NCBI RefSeq assembly: GCF_026210795.1
Contig: NC_089443.1
Coordinates: forward strand, 3,410,001 to 3,474,000
Direction of reading: 5' to 3'
Origin: Rhizophagus irregularis
Taxonomy: Eukaryota > Glomeromycota > Glomeromycetes > Glomerales > Glomeraceae
DNA: 64,000 bases
A program made the translations under genes and the position numbers. The notes under the pieces are model-generated. The model did no database searches. It saw nothing but the letters and a program-made list of their open reading frames with translations, and was not told the origin of the DNA. Below, in pieces: positions 4,501 to 63,250 of the stretch; position 1 is the first letter of the stretch, and every line of letters begins with the position of its first letter.

Positions 4501-6412
4501 TTTTTTTGAACGCGTAAACCGACTAACTCCGAATCTTTGTAAGATTACAAAAAGTTTTGACGGGCGCAAAATTCCTTATTATTTTGTCACATCACATGAA
4601 AAAAAATAAAGTCATTATTTTATCGTAGATATCAAAGGCGGAAATTTATTTTAAATGAAAACTATTATAATTTTCAATAAATATAACGTACAAAATAAAC
4701 AAAGTAACACAAAATTAGAATTGTTCTTATATGGTTTATCGCGTATGATCAAATTCACAGATGTAACTATGAACAATATTTATTTTACAATTATTTAAAT
4801 CCCATGGTCATAAGATTTTCAAAATTAAAAAAAGAAAGGAGAACAAAAGATTTTCTTCCTTATTCTTATAATTCATTATGAATTAAACCTTATTAAAGAA
4901 AAAAGTACACAAGCACAGACGCGAAACAGGAATCTGCAATGAATCCAATGAACCTATGTAAATATATAAGTGTTGCACATTATATATCAATACTTTATAA
5001 TAATTCAACGGGATGTTCTAGACATCATGCATTATCAGTCTGGTGTACTTTTGATATGTATTCATTGATTTCAAATAAAAAAGTAATTTTATATCTGTGA
5101 TATGTGTGTTATATTTATTACATTGTGTGACACTATTATTATTTATCTATTTTGGTTTTATAGTGACACTATCATTTATTACTTCTTTAAGATGCCAAAC
5201 TTAAAATTTTTTATCAATTATATTATACAAATCTCATAGAACGAATTAGAGAAATCATAGTACGTGCGTGCCATATATGACGTAGTAAACTTAGTAAACT
5301 TGTGATCACTAATCAATGTCTATGAACAGAATAGTTTCCAAATAAGGAAATTTTCATAAAATTAACTTCCATTAATAGATAAAATATTTCAAGTTTTAAA
5401 AAAAAGTAGTAAAGTGGTTAACAAAAAATTGTTCTATATTAATATATATTAACAAACAAAGAATGATAATCTAAAAGAAATATAAAGTTTTTGCTAAAAG
5501 AAGAATTGATTATATTAATACAAAAATATATTACCAAATAATAATACTTATACTTTTTTACGATAGGAAAATTAATTTTAAAAATTAATTTTAAATTTTT
5601 TATATTAAAAAAAATCATATGAAGTGATATGACGAAATATTTGCAAATTACATCAATTATAAAATACCCAAAACTTTTTGAATTCCGAATCTGCCCAAAC
5701 ATGAAATGGGCTGGTAAAATAGATTCCTATATGTTAACTTGTTTTCGATTAGGTAGAATTTTTATTAAAATTTAATATATTTTACCAAATTTGGATATTA
5801 CTGTATCCCGGGGTTAATCATCTTTTAATCATCTGTATTCTAATTTTAGTAAAATTTATCTACTTATAAGAAATCGTTATTAACGTAACACAAACTTTTT
5901 TTTTTTTGATTTCTTTATATCGGAGCATTTCCAGTAATTATATAAACTTATATAGACAAGTACGTCCAAATTAGTGAAAAAATTACTATTTAGGTTAGTC
6001 ATAAGGGGAAACCAATATTAAAAAATTTTTTTATTTATGCATGGCTTTGCACTTGTGATAATTTAAAAAAAATATCACATATCATAAATTTTTATAATAG
6101 TACTACTGATCGGTAACGAAATAGAAATTACTAATAGTAAGTAAATTCAATAAAATAAACTCGGACTTAATTACCGTAATACTTTTTTATATTATATCAA
6201 TAGATAAAAATAGACTCTGACTCCATAAATTATTTATAATATAACCTAATAAAATAAACAAATAAAAAAAAAAACTTAGTTTCTATTAAATTTGATCATA
6301 GTCGCTTCCGAATATAAATAAAGTAGAAATTTGACGAACTTCCAGAATCTCTGTGCGATATCCTAAAATAATATTATTAATAATAATAAAAGAGATTATT
6401 ATCGTAATAAAA
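1578..6412. other. Long gene-free region between two divergent HMG-box genes
   Basis: About 4.8 kb with no supportable gene; the small open frames are AT-rich and lack domains. It includes short less AT-rich patches (for example near 3460-3500) and many homopolymer runs. By position it must contain the 5' regions of both flanking HMG genes, but I cannot point to a specific promoter element. Confidence 0.5.
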
Positions 6413-7243
6413 ATGTTTACATTCTCGAGCAATGGAAATGATAGCGAACCGAATAGCATGAATACCATGACTATTATTGATGAAACTGAAACGATTACTA
6501 CGCAAAAAAATAAGCAAGTATTCTCACCAAAACAATCCTTCCCTCCCAAACCTTACGTTGAAGTACCCTTGCCAAATCATCTCAACATTGAAGAATATAT
6601 GCCAAAGAAATCCGGTGGCAAAAAAACTTCAAATGCATTTATTATATATCGGACGGTTTTTGCAAAAGTTCTCATGAACCTAGATTATCAAAATAAAATG
6701 ACCGATGTATCTAAATGGGCTGCTGAATCATGGAAAAGCGAGAAAGCTGAACTCATAACCGCATACAAAAATTTTGCAAACGAAATTCAATCAACTCACA
6801 GAAAACGTTCCCAAGATGCAATGATAAATCGTAATCGCCGGTTGATCGCTGCAACTACCCCGAGAGAAAATCCGGCACCAATTTCCGTTCCTGTGAATCC
6901 TCCAAGACATGAAATACAAGAAATTCAACAATTTCAACCTAATTTGATTACTGAACATCCTATTAATTTTCCTTACGATTTTCCGTTTCCACAAGTTTTC
7001 AATCCTGGTTCATCAGATAAAGGATTTCAAGCGAATAATTCGTTAATTTCGATTCCTGATTATAATGAATTCAGCCAATCTCCTATGTCTTCTTTATTTT
7101 CTTATGGAGATACGTTATTAAATGAAGATTTGGAAGCTTTATATCTAATGGATTCAATTTTACAACAGCAGCCTCAGGAATTTCACCCCGAATTTCAATA
7201 TGGAAATAACGATCCAACCTGGGTTTATCCTACTAGACCCTGA
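6413..7243 (+). CDS. HMG-box protein, MATA_HMG type (276 aa)
   Basis: Single-exon HMG-box protein, probably a nuclear transcription factor. The open frame reaches back to 6353, but those 20 codons are hydrophobic (Ile-rich) and AT-rich, so I start at the second Met (6413, MFTFSSNGND). The HMG box is at about residues 70-130: TSNAFIIYRTVF, then KMTDVSKWAAESWKSEK, then ITAYKNFANEI. A proline-rich lead-in (PLPNHLNIEEYMPKK) matches the lead-in of the other two HMG genes. The C-terminal half is Pro/Asn/Gln/Phe-rich without a recognised domain. It is head-to-head with the HMG gene at 864-1577, and its 3' side carries a tandem 94-bp duplication. Confidence 0.85.
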   Translation: MFTFSSNGNDSEPNSMNTMTIIDETETITTQKNKQVFSPKQSFPPKPYVEVPLPNHLNIEEYMPKKSGGKKTSNAFIIYRTVFAKVLMNLDYQNKMTDVSKWAAESWKSEKAELITAYKNFANEIQSTHRKRSQDAMINRNRRLIAATTPRENPAPISVPVNPPRHEIQEIQQFQPNLITEHPINFPYDFPFPQVFNPGSSDKGFQANNSLISIPDYNEFSQSPMSSLFSYGDTLLNEDLEALYLMDSILQQQPQEFHPEFQYGNNDPTWVYPTRP

Positions 7244-40412: not shown

Positions 40413-42531
40413 ATGTCTACTTTATTAAAAAATGTAACTATTAAAAGTCATGAAATGACAAGGCCAAAACCTCCAGTTATCGTCGGGACAGGGTCCCTAG
40501 GAAAGATATATAAAGTACAATATAAAGGAGCCGATGCTATTATTAAGTCAGCTAAGGTAAAAAAAAAAGTTTTGAAAAAAAAATATTTATTTATTTAAAA
40601 AATTGACGATTAACGTTTATTAAAATAAATTAAAGGAAGATTTAGACGCAATTTTAGAAGAATTTCACATTCATTATAAACTTCGAGAACATGAAAATGT
40701 ATTAAAATTTTACGGTATAATAAAAAAAGATGATAGAATAGCATTAATTTATGAGTATGCAACTCATGGAAAATTAACAACATTTCTAAAGAACAATTCT
40801 CTGGGTTGGGATATTAAATCAAAATTATGTCATGATATAACATTAGCATTATTTCATTGTCACGAATTAGATATATCAGATTATACTATAAAGTTAGATG
40901 ATATTTATCTAACTGATGATCGGACTGTTAAAATTGCTGGTTTCAATAAAAATAATAATAAAAGGAAAAAAGAAGATAGTCTTAACGACTTTAATACTTT
41001 TCAATCTATTGGTACCATACATTGGGATGCTCCTGAAGCTATCTCTTCTGATCAAGAAATGAAATTGTCTCTTATTAAGTAAGATTACTTTTAAAGAAAA
41101 AAAAAAATGATTATTTGAATTATCACGTGTTAATCGAATCTTTCATCTTTATTTTCTAGTCATCCAAAATTAGCAAACATTTATTCTTTGGGTCTAATAT
41201 TTTGGGCAAGTGCGTAATAATGCGTTATCTTTTTTAACATGACTTTTATCATGTTATCACTAACTCGCATTTACTTTTAGTTGTAATGAATGGAAAAATA
41301 CCATATGAAGGCATGACACGTGATAAGATAATAGAAGAGAAACGTCAGCATAACGCAAATGAACTTTTGCAAAATCTTTTACCTCAATCAATACCATCAA
41401 AATTCTCAAATATAATTTTTAAAATGACAAAATATGCTCCAAGACAAAGACCTTGTTTACTCGAAGTACTTTGTGTATTGGAAGAATTATATGATTTTAG
41501 TAATCAAAAAGAATCATTGTTAAAAGAAAATTCGAAACAAGTTCATACAGAAATTAATCTTTTCGAGAATTTATCTTCTGATTCTCGAAGCATTAGTCAA
41601 GCTAGTCAATTTTATGCTAGTGTTCCTGTACATAAAAAATTTCAAAGTACGGATTCCATGGATTCTTTAATGAATAGTTATGACAATAATAAAAATATAA
41701 ATAGTAAAAATTCTAACCATGAATATCGGCTTTCAAAAATTGATGTGGATTTATTAGGACAAATTACTATGCTGTATCTAGATTCAGAAAAATTTGGTTT
41801 TGATTGGTTCACAAAAAGTTTAAAACATTTAACTGAAACAGAAAAAAGAGATTCAAAAAAATGCTTTGAATTAATTAATTTGGACTTAAGTCGACCGCAT
41901 AGGCAATGTATTTTAGGTTTCTTTTACGAAGAGGGTTTTGGTACGACTCGTGATACTAAACAAGCTTATAAATGTTATAAGAAACTGGCGGAAGATGGTA
42001 ATTATTATGCTCAAAACCATTTAGCTTTATGTTATCAAGATGGTATCGGTATAGAAAGAGATGATTTAAAAGCTTTTGATTGGTTTAAAGAATCAGCTTC
42101 AGGTGGCAATGTTTCTGCTCAAAATAATCTTGCTATGTGTTATGATTATGGTAAAGGAACCAGTCCAAATCATGCAAAGGCCTTTACTTTATATAAATCT
42201 GCTGCTGAAGGTGGTAATGTTATGGCACAATATTCTCTTTCATTATGTTACGAAGGTGGTTATGGTACTGATGAAGATAAAAAAGAAGCTCGAAAATGGC
42301 TGAAAATTGCTGCTAATAATGGCAATTTAGCTGCAATTGAAACTTTAAAGGCAAGAAAAAGAAATATTGGTTTATTTTTTAAAAAAGTTTTATTTTCTAA
42401 AAAATTTGTAAGTATTTCTTATCACAAAAAAAAAAAAAAAAAATTATAACTTAATTGTTTAATTTTTAATTTAGTCGAATAATAAAATCTCTCGACCGCT
42501 TAGCCAAAACGTAGATGATGACGTATATTAA
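40413..42531 (+). CDS. Pseudokinase with C-terminal Sel1-like repeats, 5 exons, 606 aa
   Basis: Exons 40413-40556, 40636-41078, 41160-41209, 41281-42407 and 42475-42531 join in phase. The N-terminal domain (about residues 20-275) has the protein-kinase fold signature: GTGSLG loop at 25-30, Lys45 in AIIKSAK, HENVLKFYGI, IALIYEYATHGKL, and WDAPE at 178-182 with a later YSLGLIFWAIVMNGKIPYEG. The catalytic loop reads ISDYTIKLDDIYL, so HRD is replaced by DYT (130-132) and the Asn by Asp137; DFG is replaced by GFN (150-152). Catalysis is therefore unlikely. A Ser/Asn-rich linker leads to four Sel1-like repeats (about 417-565; for example YAQNHLALCYQDGIG), which form a protein-binding solenoid. Such kinase-Sel1 fusions are abundant in Rhizophagus. 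A scaffold role is inferred. Confidence 0.85.
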
Positions 42532-44500: not shown

Positions 44501-45358
44501 CTAATTTAAATGATTATTATTTATATCGAAAATAAACAATTCGTTGGGAGCCCAATAATTATTAGTCATGGGATAACTTGGTTGGTTAAATATGTCATAA
44601 TCAGCGTTAGTGAAAGGTAAATATTCGCTATCGGGATAAACGGGAAAGTCAGAAACTGAACTTTGAGACAAAATAATATCGTCAAATAAATTGCTAACTT
44701 CTTCCATAGTATCTGCAAAGGAGGGTGAATGATCCTCGACATTATCGAAAATGGGTTGAGAAATATTTAAAGGTTGAAATTGATGTCTAGGTTGTTGTTT
44801 AGGTTCTTGTGTAGAAGACTGGGATGTTTGTTGTTTCTTGCGTGGCGATTGCGGAGTGGGAGAAGTTTTAGCTTTTTGAGTTCGTGTATTACTATTTTTG
44901 TTGGAGTGGTCACGCCACTTGCGTTGTGAAAAAGACAAAGTTTTATGACGAGTAGTAGTTAACATGGTCTTAGCTTCTCCAGCAATGACCAAGTATTCTC
45001 GCTTGACGTGTTCAGGTTCATCTTTCCAACGTGCGGATGCCATGGAGGATACATCCGTCATTTTAAATGCGTAATTATGCGCTTTTAATAATTGAACAAA
45101 AACTCTACGATAGATTAAGAACGCGTTAGGAGATCGAGATGGTATAGCCCCATTTTTTTTTCGAGCTATTAAATCTTTTGCTTTAATCGGAGGGGGAAAT
45201 GGTAATTCGAAGGAAGGAGCTGGAATTACTGCATTTGCGATGCGGTTGATTGTATTTGCTTGTTCATACACAATTTGAAAGTTGTTATTCTCAATGAATG
45301 AAGACATCCTTTCTTTAATCGTTGGGGGTAAAATCATTAGGAGGAATGAATTGAACAA
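44501..45358 (-). CDS. HMG-box protein, MATA_HMG type (285 aa)
   Basis: Single-exon HMG-box gene. The box is at about residues 74-133, with SRSPNAFLIYRRVFVQLL, KMTDVSSMASARWKDEPE and REYLVIAGEA. The lead-in FELPFPPPIKAKDLIARKK corresponds to the conserved proline segment of the other two HMG proteins. After the box comes a basic, Lys/Ser/Gln-rich region (RHKTLSFSQRKWRDHSNK, then poly-Gln/Pro), followed by an acidic aromatic C-terminus (SDFPVYPDSEYLPFTNADYD), which could be an activation region. Possible starts are 45358, 45337 and 45307; I keep the longest. It is convergent with the pseudokinase gene. A nuclear DNA-binding role is inferred from the domain. Confidence 0.85.
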   Translation of the reverse strand: MFNSFLLMILPPTIKERMSSFIENNNFQIVYEQANTINRIANAVIPAPSFELPFPPPIKAKDLIARKKNGAIPSRSPNAFLIYRRVFVQLLKAHNYAFKMTDVSSMASARWKDEPEHVKREYLVIAGEAKTMLTTTRHKTLSFSQRKWRDHSNKNSNTRTQKAKTSPTPQSPRKKQQTSQSSTQEPKQQPRHQFQPLNISQPIFDNVEDHSPSFADTMEEVSNLFDDIILSQSSVSDFPVYPDSEYLPFTNADYDIFNQPSYPMTNNYWAPNELFIFDINNNHLN

Positions 45359-45886
45359 TCCTATGAAGAAAGTGAATGATTAAAGATCAAATATGTCAGT
45401 TTATATACCGCACAGTAACGAGTAAAAAGGAATTCACTCGATATTTTATAAGTTTTTTAAAAGTCAGACGAATTGTGTATATGCTATTTATTATTTAGGA
45501 AATATTTTTTTTTTTTTTTTTAAGAAGATTTTTGCTCTCTATTTATGCACTGCAAATGGTGCCATTTACTAATACAAAAAAATTATTGTTATAAAAAATT
45601 AAAATTATTCCAAAAAAAGATCACAAGCCGTAAATTTATCTTTTTATCTTTCAATGCATGGATGATTAGATATGATGTTTCAGCAAGCAAACAAAAAGAA
45701 TTCATCGCAAAACAAGAAAAGGAAAATTATTTCGATAATAATTCACTTTATGTATGCCTATAATACATTTTATTTTACATGCACAAGACTTGCAATTCGC
45801 ATAAAAGTTATATATTATGATGCATACCGTATTACTTTGTCCTGAAATGTTGTAGTAGAATAAAATATGCTACAAAGACTGAGAAG

Positions 45887-48448: not shown

Positions 48449-49869
48449 AGATTATTAAATATTTTTATTTTATAAAAAACATATTTAGTAAAATTGAGAT
48501 TTGCAATTTTCATCAAAATTAAAATACTAAAATTTTCAAATAAAGAAAAAAAAATTAGATTTTTTTTCTTAATACTGAAATATTGATATTTACAATAAAT
48601 AATACCTTTTTTTTTATATTATTTCTTAGTTTGTAGGACTTCACAGGTATATTTGCTTGCTAAAATCATTTATGTAATGAAAAACATAATGAATTACATA
48701 TTTTAGATAGCTTTAGTTTCAAACTTTATGTCCATAATATTTATTTTTTAATTAAATAACTAAATAATTATTAATAAAGTTTGCCATAGATTAAATAATT
48801 TCATTATTTACAAATTTTATAAACATATATATTTTTTTCAAATGAGATTTAGATATTAATTTGTTAAGAAAAGTTTATAAAGCCATCAATTTTATGTAAT
48901 TTTTGTGATTTCACTAGTAAATATTTAATTTTAATATATAGCAAAAAATTAAATTAAAATTAGAAATTGCATTTAATAATTACAATAAGATGAAATTTAA
49001 CTTATTGGATTTATCTTAATGAAATAAATCCAATGGTACCAACCACATATTCTGGACTTAATAGTTCAGTTACAAATTAGTTTTATATACTTTTTACCAA
49101 AAGATCCAATTTGCAACTATTTTATTGCACTTAAAGATATATAGTTATCATTATTGGATTCATCTTAGTAAAACAATTCTAATGAGTTGTATTTCATTCT
49201 TTTATAATTACTGGATATCCAAAAATTTTACTTAAAAAATTAGCAGGCAAATCTGTCTGTTATAATATTTGTAATACAAATAATTTGCTTATTATATAAA
49301 AATTTAACTTTACTGTTAAATTTGATAAATTAATAAATAAAGGTTTACAAGATAATTTTTATTATATTTAATAAATTTTACTATATATAGTAAAAAAAAA
49401 AAAATATTACAGTTATTATGATTTTTTTTCTTTTTAAATTAATAACCAATAGGATTACTGGTATAATCCTATAAAAAGTATTATACTTAAAATATATTTA
49501 AATTATATTTAAAATATGGATCATTTTAACGCTCACCGGAGGTTAAATTCACCGGAGGACTCCGGGAGGTGAATTTCACCATATCACGTGATATTTATTA
49601 TTATATTAAAATTTTGCTAAGATCAGTAATTACGTAACTTCAAATTTTTATGTTTGAATAAAAACGTGTAAAAAGTTTTTCTATTGATCATTTAGCATGA
49701 ACTTATAAAGTTTTATTAACGAAAAGTTTCTTTTTAAATTACAAGAATATACATAACTTTAATTAAACTATTACACCCATCCACTAACCATTTAATCTAA
49801 GTTTTTTATTAATTTAAACCCTATAGTAATGCATAAGATATATAATCCTTTATAATTCAGTTAACAATT

Positions 49870-51050
49870 AATAATTTTATGACGGAAAAGAAATGAATAT
49901 GTAAAAAAGGGATGAAGTGGATGATGAAATTAAAAAGACAATGTGAAAAATGAAATTGGAGTAAAGGGATGATGAAAAACAAAATGGGAGTGAAATGGGA
50001 TGATGTAAATGAAATGAAATGATAAAAATGAAATGGGATGTTGCAAAACGAAATGGAGTGATGAAAAACGATATGGAGATGATGGAAAATGATATAGAGC
50101 GATATGAAATGATGAAAACCGATATGGAGCGATATGAAATGATGAAAGATGACATGGAGCGATATGGAGTGATGAAAAACGATATGGAATGATATGGAGT
50201 GATATGGAGTGATATGGAGTGATATAGAACGATATGGAACGATATGGAGTGATGAAAAATGATATGGAACGATATGGAGCGATATGGAGTGATGAAAAAT
50301 GATATGGAGCAATATGGAGTGATGAAAAATGATATGGAGTATATAGAATGATATGGAGCGATATGGCGTGATGAAAAATGATATGAAACGATATGGAGCG
50401 ATATGGAGTGATGAAAGATGATATAGAGCGATATGGAGTGATGAAAAACAATATGGAACGATATGGGAAGATATGGCGTGATGAAAAACGATATGGAGCA
50501 ATATGGAGTGATGAAAAAAATGATATGGAGCGATATGGAATGATGAAAAATGATATGGGTGATGAAAAACGATATGGAACAATATGGAGTAATGAAAAAT
50601 GATATGGAGCAATATGGAGCAATGAAAAATGATATGGGCAATATGGAGTGATGAAAAATGATATGGAGTATATAGAATGATATAAAGCGATATGGCGTGA
50701 TGAAAAACGATATGGAATGATATGGAGTGATGAAAAACGATATGGAGCGATCGGCATATGGAGTGATGAAAAATGATATGGAGCGATATGGAGTGATGAA
50801 AAATGATATGGGAGCGAAAGGGACGATGATAAATGAAAAGGATAATTAAAAACAAAATGGGAGCAAAGGGAATGATAGAAAAATAAAATGGAGGCGAAGG
50901 GAATAATGAAATAATAAAAAACAAAAGGAGCGAAAAAAATAATAGCAAATAAATGAAAAGGGAGTGAAATGGATATAGAAAATGAAAAGGGAATAAAGTG
51001 ATGATAGAAAATAAAAGAAACTGTTAGTATTATTTTCAATAAAGAAAACA
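49870..51050 (+). repeat. Minisatellite, about 30-bp unit GATATGGAGCGATATGGAGT+GATGAAAAAC
   Basis: From about 50035 to 50810 a 30-base consensus built of GATATGGAG-type and GATGAAAAA-type words repeats imperfectly. The flanks (49870-50030 and 50810-51050) are degenerate purine-rich versions. The repeat period is mostly a multiple of three with few stops, so two minus-strand frames stay open for more than 360 codons (rich in HISFH and PYRFSS-like words) and one plus frame encodes MERYGVMKN-type repeats. I regard the open frames as a by-product of the repeat. Confidence 0.85.
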
Positions 51051-51089
51051 ATAAAATAGCAAAATACTAGCAATAAAAGTGAGTCTTAC

Positions 51090-51237
51090 CTTAAACCTCT
51101 TGAAGTTATTTGAAATTGTTTTCTGAAAAACAAGTTAACAAGTTAGCGTAAGAGAAAAAGAACATTAAACTAGCGAAGTAATAAGAAAATAAAAAAAATC
51201 TTACCTTAAAGAAGTTCCAGCCATTTTGGAAATAATA
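51090..51237 (-). repeat. Pair of 33-nt exon-like modules
   Basis: On the minus strand, 51237-51205 is preceded by CTTGTAG and followed by GTAAG, and 51122-51090 is preceded by TTTTTCAG and followed by GTAAG. Both blocks are 33 nt and end in TTTAAG. They lie directly beside the minisatellite. Confidence 0.45.
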
Positions 51238-51497
51238 CTACAAGAAAGCAAAAAACAAAATATGCGCTACGCGTTTGTGTAATATGAAATCACCTGGTGA
51301 ATTTCACCGGGGTAAATTTAAAATTTTAATGCATTGCAGATCAAGGTGAAATTCACCGGAGGTGAATGTAAAATTAATCCTTAAAATATACTTAATTTAA
51401 AAATTACAAAATACTTATAATATATTTTTAATATATCTAAAATATACTTAAAATTATTTTAAACTATATGTCTAATATATTTAATTTTTGCACATAT

Positions 51498-51652
51498 GGG
51501 GTCTTTGCAATAGAAAGGTACGAAGCTCAAAAAAATTAAAAATTGAATTAATATTAAATTTGCATTTATTTCAGTAAAAAAAAACATAATTAGCATATAA
51601 AGTAAAATTAAAATTTTTTTTGAGTTTCGTACCTTTCTATTGTAAAGATCCC
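51498..51652. mobile_element. 155-bp foldback MITE, GGGTCTTTGCAATAGAAAG type
   Basis: The left TIR (GGGGTCTTTGCAATAGAAAG and on to CTCAAAAAAA) is repeated inverted at the right end (CTTTCTATTGTAAAGATCCC) with few mismatches over nearly 38 bases, leaving a short AT-rich centre. It is non-coding. Confidence 0.7.
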
Positions 51653-51710
51653 ATATATTTAAATTATATTTAAATTAAAATTTAAGTATATTATAAAACT
51701 ATTATAAGTA

Positions 51711-51874
51711 CAGTTAACTCTTGTTATAATGAACCCTAGGTTTCAACTTCGCTATAAGGCTATAGTGAAGTTTTTAAGAGATTTGATTGGTTAATTTATT
51801 ATAGCAAGGGAAATTTATTATAGTTGTCTGAAAAATTCACTATATCAAGGGTTCGCTATATCAAGATTTGACTG
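51711..51874. mobile_element. 164-bp pogo/mariner-like MITE, TA duplication
   Basis: The left end CAGTTAACTCTTGTTATAA and the right end (inverted CAGTCAAATCTTGATATAG) are imperfect inverted repeats, and both flanks are TA. The interior repeats CACTATA/CGCTATA words. No transposase. Confidence 0.65.
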
Positions 51875-52575
51875 TATATTTTTTATGTATTTAAAATATA
51901 CTTAAAATATATTATGAAATATATTATAACTTATAAGTATATTTTAAGTATATAAAAAATATATCTATAATATACTTAAATTTTAATTTAAGTATAATTT
52001 AAGTATATTTTAAATATTTGGGCAAAAATTAAATATATTAGAAATATATTTTAAGATAATTTTAAATACATTTTAAGTATATTATAAGTATTTCACAATT
52101 TTTAGATTAAATATATTTTAAATTATATTTTAAATATAAATACTTTTTATAGGGTAATTACTAGTAAAATTTAAATTTTTCTCAAAGACCTTTATTAAAA
52201 ATAAGTAGAATCCATAATAATAATATTATAAATCTAAATAAATACAGTAAAAAGACTTAAAAAAATATTAAAAGATTTTTAATATATTAAATTATAGTAA
52301 ATATTAATGAACTAATAGAAACTTATTATATAATATTTAAAATTAAAAATAAAAAAATTTATAATATTAAAAAGATAATTATTATTTTTCATAAGTATGA
52401 TTTTTCATTACTATTTTATTTTAATAATATCATATAATTTATATGTAATTTAAATTGTTTTTGTATTATATCAATTACATTATTTACATCAGTTATAGCG
52501 AATTATCTACTATTTTTTTTTTTTTTTGTTCTCTTTTATTATATTTTAAGAATTTTATATATAACATATATATAG

Positions 52576-54773: not shown

Positions 54774-56040
54774 TAGGTAAGGTCCCAAAATATTTTTTAT
54801 TAGTAGTTCTAAGCATAGGTTTTTACTATAATTGTTAAGCATTATTGATATCTAACCTTAAAAATTATATAAAAATAAGCAAATCAATCTTCTAACCTAA
54901 TTAAATTTTTATTATAACACATATAATTTATAAAATATACTTATTAATTAGAATATAACTAATTTGCACCTTAGGCGATTTCGACAATTTTTCATTTTTG
55001 CAGTGAATTTAACCCGATAATTTTTATATAATTTTAATATAATTCATAACTAACTGGTTGGTTTCACCTAGGTGATTTCACCCACATGATTTATTGAATT
55101 TTATTGGCTAATTAATGTGTAGATCATTTCTTAATGTTATTTATTTTTTTCTTTAAATAACTTAAAAATGAAGTTCTCTTTATTATTTTCTTGCTTTTCA
55201 CTGCTTTTTTTACTTTTGCTAATGTTACTTTTAGAAGGTTAGATAACTTCAATTAAAATAATTCTATTAAACTTAAAACAGCAGATTTGTTCTTATTTTA
55301 TTATTTTTGCTATATTTTATGCTTTTTTATTTATATCGGTAATAACATTAGATTTCTTTTTTTTTTAATTTTCACACCATTCTTCATCGTATCATTTTTG
55401 TATATATTGGTGGTGTATTTTTCCTATTATTTCCGCAGTGCCTTACTTATCATTTTTATAGTATTATTTATATTTTAATGGTGTTTTTACTATCATTTTT
55501 GTGGTATCTTTCCTATTATTTTTGTATATTTTGATGGTATGTTTTTTCTATCATTTTTGTGGTATTTTCTTACCATTTTTGTGGTATTATATATATTTAA
55601 TGGTGTTTTCACTATCATTTTCGTGGTGTCTTTTCCATTATTTTGTATATTTTAGTGGTATATTTTTCCTATCATTTTTGCGGTATTTTTCTTATCATTT
55701 TTATGGTATTATTTAAGGTTGCTTGCCGAAACTAGAGGGTTTCGGCAGAATGGCGTACGCGAAACTGCCGAAACTAGTTTCGCGAAATCATCAAGAAATG
55801 CCGAAACTGCAAAACCTATCAAAATCGCGAAACTGCCGTAACTTGCCGAAACTGTTTCGGCGTTTCGGCAATACTTTCTATATGATTTAATTAGAGTTTC
55901 AGCATTTAAACAATTTATAAGAATAAAGATTAAAGACAATATGATTTTTTGTATGTAAATATTTATTTTATAATATTTAATATTAAACTAATAAAATACA
56001 CGATTAAAAATATAATAAAAATTAAAATTTAATAATATCT

Positions 56041-56170
56041 TTATCTTCTATGTGGGGACCTGCTTCTACCTCTTCTTCTATCTCTACTTCTGTCCCGTCT
56101 TCTATCTCTACTTCTATCTCGTCTTCTATCTCTACTTCTATCTCGTCTTCTATCTCTACTTCTTGATCTA
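56041..56170 (-). repeat. 24-bp tandem repeat coding for Arg/Ser/Asp
   Basis: CTTCTATCTCTACTTCTATC-type units of 24 bases repeat about five times. The minus-strand frame gives SRDRRRDR-type octapeptides, so the repeat length keeps the frame. Confidence 0.75.
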
Positions 56171-56715
56171 CTTCTTGATCGGAGACCTAGATCGCGACCT
56201 TCTTCTTTCCCTTCGCAATCTATATTCATATCGACGTCGATCATGCGCAGCATGCTGCCGTCGATACTCTCGTCTAAACAGATCTAAAATCCAATAAAAA
56301 TATTAATGAATTGAATGAATTGCCTAAATAAAATTAATTTAAAATAATAATTAATAATAATTACCGGTTTGTAACCAGAATTCATCGTTCATATCAGCAA
56401 AACACGCTCTATCGAAACTATTTGGGCTTATAATAGTAATGTCGTCATCATTATTATTTATTATCCTACTGAGGTTTTACATAACCTCGTTTGAGGGCAT
56501 TCCATTTTGTTTGGCATTGCCTGGGTGTCGCTGCAAATCCCGTTGCAACGAACACCCTATTTGCTATTATTGTCCGTGCATTTACATGATGACGGTTTGC
56601 AATTCTTTCGAATTGCTGATGTAAGTTTCTCCGCTCCGCGATTAATTGCCTAGCTGCGTTAATCGTCCATTGGAATACTGGTGGTGGCGGTGGAATAAGG
56701 TACTAATGCTGCCAT
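56168..56715 (-). pseudogene. Second hAT gene: Myb/SANT-like protein with RS-rich tail
   Basis: From the Met at 56715 (MAALVP) a one-base shift leads into a Pro-run and then VFQWTINAARQLIAERRNLH, with QQFERIANRH and GFAATPRQCQTKWNALKRGY: the W...W spacing and the final QC..KWN.LK.GY are typical of trihelix/Myb-SANT-like DNA-binding domains. A second frame break follows (TAG at about 56475), then DDDITIISPNSFDRACFADM in phase with a donor at about 56362 and an acceptor near 56285, and a basic Arg-rich exon ending RRRSRSRSPIKK at 56168. A longer Arg/Ser repeat reads on in another frame to 56041. It is downstream of the transposase on the same strand, inside the TIRs. Confidence 0.55.
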
Positions 56716-57054
56716 TTTTTATTTTTATGATTTTTTCGTAACTTGAAATTTGAAAATTAAATACAATTTGAAAATTAAAATACAATTTGGTTTTGAATTG
56801 CGAAAAAAAAATTCAAATTTCATAATATTTATAATAATTTTAAAATTCGTTATAATGTTTAAAACATGAACTGATGAACATAATAACATTCTACATAATT
56901 AAAGTATTTGTAACAAAATAAACACAGTTTTGATTCTAATGTAATAAATTTAATTAACGCAGTTCTAAATTTTTTTTTGTAACGCAGTTCTTAAAATTTA
57001 TTGATCTAATGTAATAAATTTAATTAACGAAGTCCTTAAAACTTATTGATTCTA

Positions 57055-57201
57055 ATATAATATGCTTATCCTTATTCCTTAATTAAATTGCACTATTTTT
57101 AAAATATAATATGCTTATCCTTATTCCTTAATTAAATTGCACTATTTTTAAAATATAATATGCTTATCCTTATTCCTTAATTAAATTGCAATGTTTTAAA
57201 A
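57055..57201. repeat. Three-copy tandem repeat, 49-bp period, inside the hAT element
   Basis: ATATAATATGCTTATCCTTA starts at 57055, 57104 and 57153 with nearly identical units. It lies between the two hAT genes. A less regular duplication (GTAATAAATTTAATTAACG) precedes it near 56940 and 57010. Confidence 0.85.
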
Positions 57202-57384
57202 TATAATATAAAATTACAATTGCCTGCATTGCCTGCATAATTATATGTTAACTGGACTTTGATCGCGAATATTTTGCTCTGCATAATTACATCATTTATT
57301 TCCTAAATAGTATCATTATTTAAATCACATGATATTAGAATTAATTCTCATTGGATTAACTATTGTAATTATTTCTCATTATTA

Positions 57385-59689
57385 TTATTCCTCATTATCA
57401 TCATAATTATCGTCATTATTATCACCGTCATCCATACCTAATACATCATCTATATCATAATCATAGTCACCTTCTCCGGGTCTCTTGTTATTACCACTAT
57501 CATCAACTTCATCATCTTCCGCATTATTTTCATCTGAATCATCCAATATATCTCTTGGAATATCGCCGATTTCACTAGTAATTGAATCATGCGATAAATT
57601 AACAAATTGATCAATCCATAGACTTTCGATTACTACACGGCAATTGTCTTCGGGTATTGTTTCGCCGCTTGTAGTTAATCTCCGAGTAAGGCTTGCTCCT
57701 CATTATATTCCTCATCGTCATCTTCTGCAAAAGCTTCTGCAATACGTATATTGATCTCATCATCACTAAGACGAGTATTCTTTTTTGATCAATTCCATAA
57801 AATCCAAGTTCAGTTTTTGAATTGGATTTCCAATACAAAATTAATTTGCACATGGATTCTAGTTTATCCACATTAAGATTTAAGCGACGTTTATGAAATA
57901 GCCATCCTAAAGTCAAAAATCCACGTTCGCAAGTTGCTGAGTTAGGACATATTGCAAATAGATAACTTGCAATTCTTGGCAGGGACATCTGGTTCTGGTT
58001 CGGTATTAATATATTTCCACCAATTCACGGGATTATCTTTAGCAAAACCGATATCTAGGTCAAATGGCTCTTGCTCATTAATATATTTCTGTATTTGATC
58101 ACATAAAGTTTCAGCTTCGTAACGGTCGAAACCTAAATTTTTCCCGATTGAAGCTGCACATTTGATAATTCTCATGAGGGCGCATTTTTTAAGTGGCGCG
58201 TTTCTAAATCTGGGATCCATAAAAAAACAAGTAATATACTTATCATTATCGAATTCATCAAATCTTTCATTTATTACTTTGATACAATGACTTCGGAATG
58301 CAGGATTTAATGATTTGGGTAACTTTTTTAATGTAGCTGCAAGTCTTGCCAAGCTCAGGAAACAATCTGCAAGTGTAGCTCTTCTCGATTCTAATGAAAG
58401 TACCGCTTTTCTTAGAGGATCCAGAACAAATCCAAGAACTCGTAAATTTGAAAAAAAAATTTCTCGATTGAATAATCGGTTTTATTTTATCATTTGTTAG
58501 CACTTTATCGTGATCGCTGGCCATTTCTTCTAGTGCTGATTCCAAATTTATTACTGAATTTACGGATTCACTAGCAGTAGTCCAGCGTGTCTTGCAATAT
58601 AATTTTAATCCTCCTCCACTAATTCCTTTTTCTTTAATTATTTGAGCAAGTTTTGCATTAGCCTGATGAGAACTTCTAAAAAAGGTTGTCAAAATATTAA
58701 CACGTTTTAATAAACATTTCCCAAACTTCTCCTTGACGATGTCGCATGCAATTAAATTGATAGAATGTGCAACGCATCGCACATTCTCAATCTTTGGATG
58801 ATTCTCATGTATAATTTTTCGTGCATTACGAACATTGGCCGCATTATCGGAAACTACAGCACATATTCGATCTTCTCCAATACCTTCTATAACCTTTTCA
58901 ATTACCGTAACTAGATATTCTGCAGTGTGCGAATTTTCAGACAAATCAGAAAGTTGATAAAGATATTCTTTACGCGACGGAGTCATTACAATGAAGTTCC
59001 AAATTGAACGATGTGTACCAGACGTCCAACCATCAAAGGCTAAATTATAAATTAATATTATATAGTAAGTAAGATTAAATAAAAATGACGTATGATAGCC
59101 TATTTAATTTAACAAACCTAACGTTAAATTCGTTTCCTTTTCAAGCTCAGAATTAACTTTCGAAGTTCACTTGAGCTAATTCACGTTCAAGTAGTTGATT
59201 TACTAATACTTCCCTTGTTGGTGTATTGTACCCGGCATTAAGCTCTTTTATAAAATTGATGAAAAAGGGATGTTCCACTACTCTAAACGCAATTCCGCAC
59301 GCAATAAAAAATTTAACTAATGCACGATTAATTTGTGTACATCTTTGTTCGTTAAGCTCTGTTGAATCATGGTAATCATCCATGTTATCATTTCGACCTT
59401 CAGAGTATTTTCTTTTTGATGACTTGGACTTATCTTGCCGTTCCATTACTTTAGTCATATACCTTCTAACAACTGCTGCTGGCGCATCTGGACAATGGTT
59501 TGAAAGATGCTCTTCGAGCTTTGAAACTTCACCGCATGACCATGTATTCTTACAGTACTTGCAGGAGGCGGCAAATTTGCCAGAACCAACAGCTTCTCCT
59601 TTATTAATATCTTCCCAAATGCTATTAAAGCGGTCCGAACCTCCTCTATTTTTCATTTTAATGGGTGAATCTTCTATGTGATCAGTCAT
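57385..59689 (-). pseudogene. hAT transposase with BED zinc finger, several frameshifts
   Basis: Reading from the Met at 59689: BED finger (Cys43, Cys46, His61, Cys66), a linker, then after a short intron (about 59119-59043) DGWTSGTHRSIWNFIVMTPS and the conserved VVSDNAANVRNARKIIHENH core with RCVAHSINLIACDIV, a central helical region, and the C-terminal dimerisation motif NSATCERGFLTLGWLFHKRR followed by an acidic tail to the stop at 57385. The frame breaks at about 59157, 58450 (A run), 57985, 57790 (A run) and 57680; each needs only one base. Either the gene is recently decayed or homopolymer errors are present. hAT transposases cut and paste the element by binding its ends. Confidence 0.85.
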
Positions 59690-60740
59690 TTGAAACAGTT
59701 TATTATTAATATTATTATTAAGAAAACGGAAGAAAGTAAAAGAAACTTTAGTTCAGTGTTAAAGGAGATGACGGAATTGGGTTTATTAAATGCATGTTAC
59801 GCATTTTCCTTTAATGAATATAAGCCCCTTAAAAAAAAACTGTAAAAACGTGTAATATCATAATATTAATATGGGAGTTAGAAATGAAAATTCTAACACT
59901 AGATAAATAAAACTAAAAGAACTAAGACGACGGTAAAATATTGAAGTTTAATCTTTTATCTGTAGATTATTTGATCATCTAAATTATATTATTAATTGGT
60001 GTAACTTGGCGTAACTATATGCAAATCTTATGATCAACTATGCCGAAACTACAGAGAAACCTATTATAGAGGTTTCGGCATGTTTCGGCAGTTTCGCAAT
60101 TTTGACAGGTTTCGCAGTTTCGGCGTTTCGGCGTTTCGGCACTATATAAGAGGTTTCACCTTTCGGCATTAGGCCAAACAGGTTTCGGCAAGCAACCTTA
60201 GTATTATTTATATTTTAATGGTATTTTCCTACCATTTTTGTGATGTCTTTCTTATTACTTTGTATATTTTAGTGGTATGTTTTCCTATTATTTTCGCAAT
60301 GTTTTTCTTATCATTTTCGTAATATTATTTATATTTTAATGGTGTTTTAACTATTATTTACGTGGTGTCTTTTCTATTTTTTGTGGCATTTTTTTGTTCC
60401 TTTTCATTTCACTTTTGATACAATTATTTCAAATTGTACAATTAAAAAAATTAGCTAATCATTGATTGAATAAACTTTATATATAAATAAATTATTTAAG
60501 TATGCAATATTAAAATTTACAGTAAATATTTAATCAATCAAATTTAATAAATTAATTAAAAGTAAAATCACCTGAGTGAAATTACTTTTAGGTGATTTCA
60601 TCTTTGAGTGCAAGTTAGCAACACTCTATTAATTAAATATATTTTATTAAATCCAATTTTAAATATGATCAATACATATTAATATACAAGTAGATTAACA
60701 ATATTTAATTAATAAAGTTAATAAACAGTAAAAGAAATTA

Positions 60741-61430: not shown

Positions 61431-61878
61431 TAAAACATATTTACAGTAATTTTATTTAACAAAATAAACATGTATAATATAGTAATTTTATATTAAAAAT
61501 AATACACTGATTTTAATAAAAATTAAAAAAGATACTATTGAAAGATAATTAATAAAATATTGAAAAAAAAACTGAAATTTCATTAAAAAAAAATTTTTGT
61601 TTATGTATTTATATAAAATTGTGAAATGTAATACAAAATTAACACCCACTATTAGTGAAAATAAAATAAAAATTAATTATAAATTTAATATATAATATTT
61701 TAAAAAGTTCTATAAATATGAAAAATAAGCAACTTAAAACTCTTAGTATTTTAAAATAATGCAATTTAATTATCTTACATAGTATAAAATTTTCTCAAAA
61801 TTAAGTATTATAAAATTTTTACATTATTAAATTTTTCTATATTGGCTAAGCACCTTGGTACCTTACATATATAATATA

Positions 61879-62362: not shown

Positions 62363-63250
62363 GGAATGGTAATAATTAGTCATAGTTAATCATCAGTTAG
62401 TCATAACTGATCAAGAACTTTTGACCGACTGGTTATTCTAATTAATTGCTATAATTGATTATTTGACTGACAATTTGATTGCTTAACCAATTATTATCAA
62501 TCTAGTTTTTAACATTTTTTATTAAAAAAAATATAAAAACCCTTTTTTTTTTACAATTTTTTTTATTAAAATAATTAAAAAATATTATAAAAACATTTTT
62601 TTTTTAATTAATTATTAATAAAAATATTTTTACAATGTTTTTTATTAAAATAATTAAAAATGTTTGTAAAAAATGTTTTTTTCATTAAATTATTAATAAA
62701 AAATATTTTTACAACAGTTTCTATTAAAATTATTAAAAAATGTTGTAAAAACGTTTCTTATTAAATTTTTTATAATTTTTTTTAATTGAAATATTGTGAA
62801 AATATTTTTTATTAATAATTTTATAACAAAGAACATTTTCACATTTTTTTTAATAAAAAATATTGCAGAAACATTAAAAATTAGACTAATAATAATCAGT
62901 CAAATGGTTAATTAAACAGTCAGTCAGAAATCTTAACTGACCAATATCAGTCATGATCATGACCAATCATTAAAATTGCTTGTCTAAACCTCTTCAAAAT
63001 TCTACGATTAGTTTCATCAAAATTTTACTATAGATTTATTATAGTTTCGGCAGAGTTTCAGCAGTTTCGGTATTTATAATAAGTTTTGGCAGTTTCACCT
63101 TTCTCCAAAGTTTTGCCAGTTTTTTAATATAACTTTAATATAGTTTCAGCAGAATTTCGCTTTTCAGCGAAACGCCATCTTACCTAAATCCCTAAGTTTC
63201 AGCAAGCAACCTTACCAATCATAATCAGTTAATAATTGTAACCGTTACTA
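62363..63250. mobile_element. Decayed element containing a hAT end remnant
   Basis: The outer ends (GGAATGGTAATAATTAGTCA near 62363 and its degenerate complement near 63220-63250) and internal (A/G)TCAGTCAA words form imperfect inverted repeats. Within it, 63043-63214 is a diverged copy of the hAT right end: several GTTTCGGCAG-like words and a terminal GTTTCAGCAAGCAACCTTA matching the hAT terminus at 60182-60200 with one mismatch. Confidence 0.5.

Follow-up and report, generated by a model that had tools for sequence, protein, structure and literature searches.

Second open reading frames (ORFs) that encode Myb/SANT-like proteins are documented in PIF/Harbinger, Pangu and Nuwa transposons (passages of PMC4482050), and they are presented as typical of PIF/Harbinger in parts of both PMC4482050 and PMC9710019; the initial annotation of the locus described here, which called a Myb-like second protein a hallmark of these elements, agrees with those statements. 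A 9-bp subterminal motif is the binding site of the Harbinger3_DR Myb-like protein, which also interacts with the transposase of that element (as described in a section of PMC9710019), and in the hAT element Hermes the left-end subterminal repeats are bound by the BED domains of the transposase itself (a section of PMC10368747). The TET/JBP genes carried by hAT7 of rust fungi recur in Harbinger, IS3EU, EnSpm and other elements, from which the authors, in the corresponding passages of PMC12730594, infer passive transmission between lineages. For Rhizophagus irregularis, hAT families are named in a curated study of transposable elements, whose main text contains no word beginning with Myb (PMC11075540). 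In this study, a 64,000-nucleotide stretch of R. irregularis DNA (contig NC_089443.1, positions 3,410,001 to 3,474,000; hereafter the window, to which all coordinates refer) was analysed. At positions 55714-60200 it carries a single hAT insertion, whose ends enclose a broken transposase gene and a broken gene for a Myb/SANT-like protein. We place about even weight on the reading that a fungal hAT element, equipped with a BED-like/DUF659 transposase and a Myb/SANT-like gene, entered a 122-bp tandem array as one unit, and that both genes have decayed since.

One hAT insertion enclosing two coding relics

The insertion consists of the following parts.

55706-55713: target-site duplication GTATTATT, left copy
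55714-55732, plus strand: left terminal inverted repeat (19 bp, TAAGGTTGCTTGCCGAAAC), 100% complementary to the right end
55725-55869: left end region with 7 exact GTTTCGGC/GCCGAAAC sites, the first one in the terminal repeat
56041-56283, minus strand: exon 2 of the Myb-like gene, basic and Arg/Ser-rich
56284-56364, minus strand: putative 81-nt GT...AG intron of the Myb-like gene, as judged from the sequence
56365-56715, minus strand: exon 1 of the Myb/SANT-like gene (PF13837 match, frame views, and the codon model for its two long pieces)
56716-57384: AT-rich intergenic stretch between both genes, with three 49-bp tandem copies
57385-59689, minus strand: hAT transposase relic with a BED-like finger pattern, a DUF659 core, a candidate hAT dimerisation region and an acidic C-terminal tail
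60042-60189: right end region with 7 exact GTTTCGGC/GCCGAAAC sites, the last one in the terminal repeat
60182-60200, minus strand: right terminal inverted repeat (19 bp), the exact reverse complement of TAAGGTTGCTTGCCGAAAC
60201-60208: target-site duplication GTATTATT, right copy

The initial annotation had placed two minus-strand coding relics within one pair of perfect hAT termini flanked by an 8-bp duplication, and each part of this description was confirmed. The duplication taken alone is weak evidence, since the window contains GTATTATT 10 times, with one additional copy in the surrounding array (at 55461). This array, built of 122-bp units, is split by the element into two parts (55390-55715 and 60209-60384), and its units serve as internal controls of the empty site. 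When the flanks were joined with one copy of the duplication, a single array of 4.0 units was obtained (score 622, versus 2.7 units and a score of 405 for the left flank alone), and 53 of the 58 columns across the junction matched a neighbouring array unit. As the array reads through once the element is removed, the element was inserted as one unit. A chance duplication within the tandem array was also considered as the source of the flanking repeats, and it was rejected in view of this continuity and of a second insertion, a miniature relative at 62971-63214.

This relative was recovered in an end-pair scan of the window, in which up to 6 mismatches per end, a distance of 60-8000 bp and a duplication with at most 1 mismatch were allowed. 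From 6 left-end and 5 right-end candidates, two pairs were formed, that is the large element and the miniature, while 60 random resamples (first-order Markov, with means of 3.9 and 3.5 end candidates) gave none.

62971-63214: 244-bp miniature hAT-type relative, 2.8 kb away from the large element, to whose ends its own are similar (4 and 1 mismatches)
62963-62970 and 63215-63222: its duplication CCAATCAT, a perfect 8 bp

The miniature matches neither coding part of the large element. With a perfect duplication of its own, it confirms the end sequence and the 8-bp duplication of the family.

Both ends of the large element are rich in short repeats. Apart from the 14 exact 8-bp GTTTCGGC/GCCGAAAC sites listed above, the window contains only two others (16 in total), one in the miniature and one elsewhere. 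With at most one mismatch, the 348 bp of the ends contain 16 sites, the interior of the miniature 6 and the rest of the window 21, of which 4 lie in the inner part of the element. The 8-bp duplication, the inverted ends and the subterminal repeats are all of the hAT type.

hAT transposases cut at the ends of an element and insert it with an 8-bp stagger, and the DUF659 domain is a mark of these enzymes. The transposase relic was read through six long frame pieces and one short piece, the latter located before a putative intron (59117-59040), with about five frame changes. DUF659 was found in this read-through with an E-value of 2.3e-24 (Pfam), which identifies a hAT-type core and agrees with the annotated hAT transposase. 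The remaining domains gave weaker signals: Dimer_Tnp_hAT fell just below its cut-off in the read-through (E 5.3e-4; 20.2 bits versus 21.4), and both hAT-like_RNase-H (E 0.014) and zf-BED (E 0.029 in a single ORF, 0.12 in the read-through) were below theirs, the C-x2-C...H..C pattern of a BED-like finger being recognisable by eye. Comparison of a transposase piece with Protein Data Bank (PDB) sequences returned five rows, exclusively designed proteins with an E-value of 0.15 or worse. The C-terminal tail of the transposase (57388-57690) is strongly acidic (Asp/Glu-rich), its charge being opposite to that of the basic end of the Myb-like protein.

The Myb/SANT-like gene and its decay

The open frame at 56702-56466 matches PF13837 (Myb/SANT-like) with an E-value of 1.4e-6 and 29 bits, above the curated cut-off of 27, over positions 3-67 of the 89-position profile. 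The second protein had been annotated as Myb/SANT-like and as containing QCQTKWNALKRGY; the profile search bears out the former, and the motif is present. A comparison with PDB sequences (E-value up to 10) produced three rows: the plant trihelix protein GT-1 twice, each time weakly (E 0.46 and 0.64), and an adenylate cyclase (E 1.2, without a matched stretch).

By the frame view, the gene has its putative start codon at 56715 and its domain in a second frame, and runs in a third frame to 56366, so that exon 1 contains two frame changes, the first close to the beginning of the exon and the second towards the domain's end. In exon 2, the frame that continues exon 1 reaches a stop at 56170-56168, after the Arg/Ser-rich RRERRRSRSRSP. 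A further Arg/Ser run, with a stop at 56043-56041, requires a third frame change and is situated in a 24-bp tandem repeat. The annotated Arg/Ser-rich tail can be read in the sequence but is uncertain, its longer part lying in a repeat and in another frame that the codon model disfavours. The Myb domain thus has good support, unlike the long Arg/Ser tail.

The codon model was trained on 8 open host ORFs of the window, and the two shortest pieces were left unscored. Among the six frames, the proposed one scored best in both long Myb pieces (m2 and m3) and in the six long transposase pieces. The coding pieces contain no in-frame stops, which is partly a matter of construction, because the pieces were cut at frame changes. 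Both genes of this copy are broken by frameshifts, two or three in the Myb-like gene and about five in the transposase. The densities do not differ (3 in 582 coding bases for the Myb-like gene versus 5 in 2211 for the transposase; binomial p 0.38), and this fits a joint arrival of the two genes, although as a test it is weak. A general sequencing problem as the source of the frameshifts was rejected, as host ORFs in the window run unbroken for up to 675 codons; this comparison is biased towards long open ORFs, the only ones listed, and leaves room for assembly errors within the element.

The intergenic stretch between the two genes showed no coding signal by the codon model. Its three near-identical 49-bp tandem copies (57054-57209) may be regulatory repeats. 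A blastn search of the whole element within the window found two overlapping 73% matches of this 49-bp repeat to 61682-61772 and nothing else, and a tblastn search with one Myb and one transposase piece found no further copies in the window. No relatives were detected by protein in viral or prokaryote contig collections, nor was the exact 18-base end found in the viral contigs, which is unsurprising for a eukaryotic element.

Origin of the second gene

That the Myb-like gene was aboard the element at the time of insertion is the most likely course of events. The gene has a start codon, a putative intron and a stop, that is, a gene-like layout, and it stands in tandem with the transposase. In such an element, the transposase would cut at the ends and insert with an 8-bp stagger, and the Myb-like protein may help it to reach or recognise these ends, by analogy with its Harbinger counterpart. 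In active relatives, the Myb-like protein would bind the GTTTCGGC sites in both ends, sharing or taking over their recognition, and contact between its basic tail and the acidic one of the transposase is conceivable. A further-reaching form of this proposal, which we put forward tentatively, is that a hAT lineage permanently adopted a Harbinger-style Myb/SANT partner that reads the GTTTCGGC repeats and brings the transposase to the ends, a helper solution that would then have arisen in, or been transferred to, an unrelated transposase superfamily.

Several observations weigh against a functional two-gene unit. Only one coding copy is to hand, and both of its genes are broken. At the level of the gene model, the ATG at 56715 does not share the frame of the domain piece, the longer Myb read-through (with X at the frame changes) drops below the Pfam cut-off (E 1.8e-5, 25.5 bits), the first piece of exon 2 (m4) is barely favoured by the codon model (0.154 versus 0.124), and the tandem-repeat piece (m5) is not favoured, another, acidic frame being picked over it (0.33 versus 0.09). 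The predicted structure of the 78-residue Myb ORF consists of three helices at low confidence (mean pLDDT 67.1, pTM 0.34), and a Foldseek search with it gave no significant match (three rows, E 7.9 to 9.8). Moreover, the Myb-like protein is unnecessary to explain the subterminal repeats, because in Hermes such repeats are bound by BED domains, and the miniature, which lacks both genes, shows that ends without the genes can still be mobilised.

The most serious competitor is a captured passenger, i.e. a Myb/SANT gene of the host or of another transposon that was picked up once, by repair or mis-excision, and carried unused. We regard this as possible, at a probability not far below that of the favoured reading. 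It would suit a gene known from a single coding copy, and fungal transposons are described as passing on accessory TET/JBP genes passively, with no signature at the borders compared (in the passages concerned of PMC12730594). The miniature also moved without the Myb-like gene, but this does not decide whether the gene belongs to the element, because the miniature is devoid of the transposase as well. Unused cargo fits less well with a gene-like, start-to-stop layout that runs in tandem with the transposase gene, or with a frameshift density no different from that of the transposase.

It is unlikely that the Myb-like gene entered the hAT copy later, nested within another element such as a Harbinger remnant. 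Such an origin would agree with the typical occurrence of Myb/SANT genes as the second ORF in PIF/Harbinger and related elements (in the relevant part of PMC4482050). Inverted 10-bp pairs that flank the Myb-like gene with an arm to its left and another to its right, differing by up to 1 mismatch, were counted and compared with 40 random resamples, and they were no commoner than chance (83 observed versus a mean of 74.6, sd 27.6); among them, 5 had a duplication of at least 3 bp (5.0 expected) and none had one of at least 8 bp (0.025 expected). A nested insertion with its own ends was consequently rejected; a fragment without recognisable ends is compatible with these data. Of 37 ORFs in and around the element, 16 were scanned with Pfam, and none of these matched a Harbinger-type transposase at an E-value of up to 10; ten of the 16 gave nothing above cut-off. 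Finally, a spurious Myb match or a pairing of ends from different elements, for which the AT-rich, repeat-rich surroundings and the recurrence of the duplication motif in the window and array might speak, is largely refuted by the Pfam match above its curated cut-off, by the continuity of the array across the empty site and by the absence of a comparable end pair from the 60 resamples, and is very improbable.

The entry of a two-gene hAT element as one unit thus retains the most weight. The initial annotation had gone further and taken the second protein to be an accessory factor acquired by this hAT lineage; the parts of that interpretation that stand are the enclosure of both relics in one hAT end pair, the Myb/SANT-like domain and the lack of separate ends around it, whereas the Arg/Ser tail proved weaker than described.

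Genomic surroundings and comparison with known systems

The window has a low G+C content (25.6%). Three open ORFs with HMG-box similarity lie within its 64 kb, at 44501-45379 (E 1.9e-8), 864-1604 (E 4.9e-5) and 6335-7243 (E 1.5e-4), the last two falling under the Pfam cut-off. A protein kinase domain followed by Sel1 repeats extends across two ORFs at 40624-42449. Taken together, the G+C content, the HMG-box ORFs and the kinase/Sel1 locus would suit a glomeromycete. The low-complexity stretch at 49857-51066, which holds three overlapping minus-strand ORFs of 322-388 codons, is probably repeat DNA and not a gene; a G skew of 0.477 was recorded over 50001-52000, in the same region.

If the pairing of the two genes proves to be conserved, DNA-binding helper genes would be interchangeable modules between DNA transposon superfamilies, and a transposase with a BED-like finger of its own may gain end recognition or nuclear entry from a Myb helper.

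The element resembles hAT transposons of the Ac/Hermes type in its duplication of 8 bp, its short and perfect inverted ends with subterminal repeats and its DUF659 core, to which a BED-like pattern and a candidate dimerisation region, both below the Pfam cut-off, may be added. It differs from that type in the second, Myb/SANT-like gene inside its ends. No hAT element with a Myb/SANT gene was found among the open-access matches listed, which is weak evidence of absence, as Repbase and most of the subscription literature lay outside the scope of the search. The second ORF with a Myb/SANT-like domain is shared with PIF/Harbinger, Pangu and Nuwa (PHIS) elements, as these are described in parts of PMC4482050 and PMC9710019, from which the locus departs in having the transposase, ends and duplication of a hAT element. 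In particular, its 8-bp duplication contrasts with the short, 3-bp TWA duplication of PIF/Harbinger (given in a passage of PMC4482050). The rust hAT7 elements, as portrayed in portions of PMC12730594, offer the third comparison: they too are fungal hAT transposons, and the type of accessory gene that they hold occurs in Harbinger and other lineages as well, so that the sharing of an accessory gene between hAT and Harbinger is already documented, for another gene. Unlike the R. irregularis element, they have a 7-bp duplication, and the gene that they carry is TET/JBP instead of Myb/SANT.

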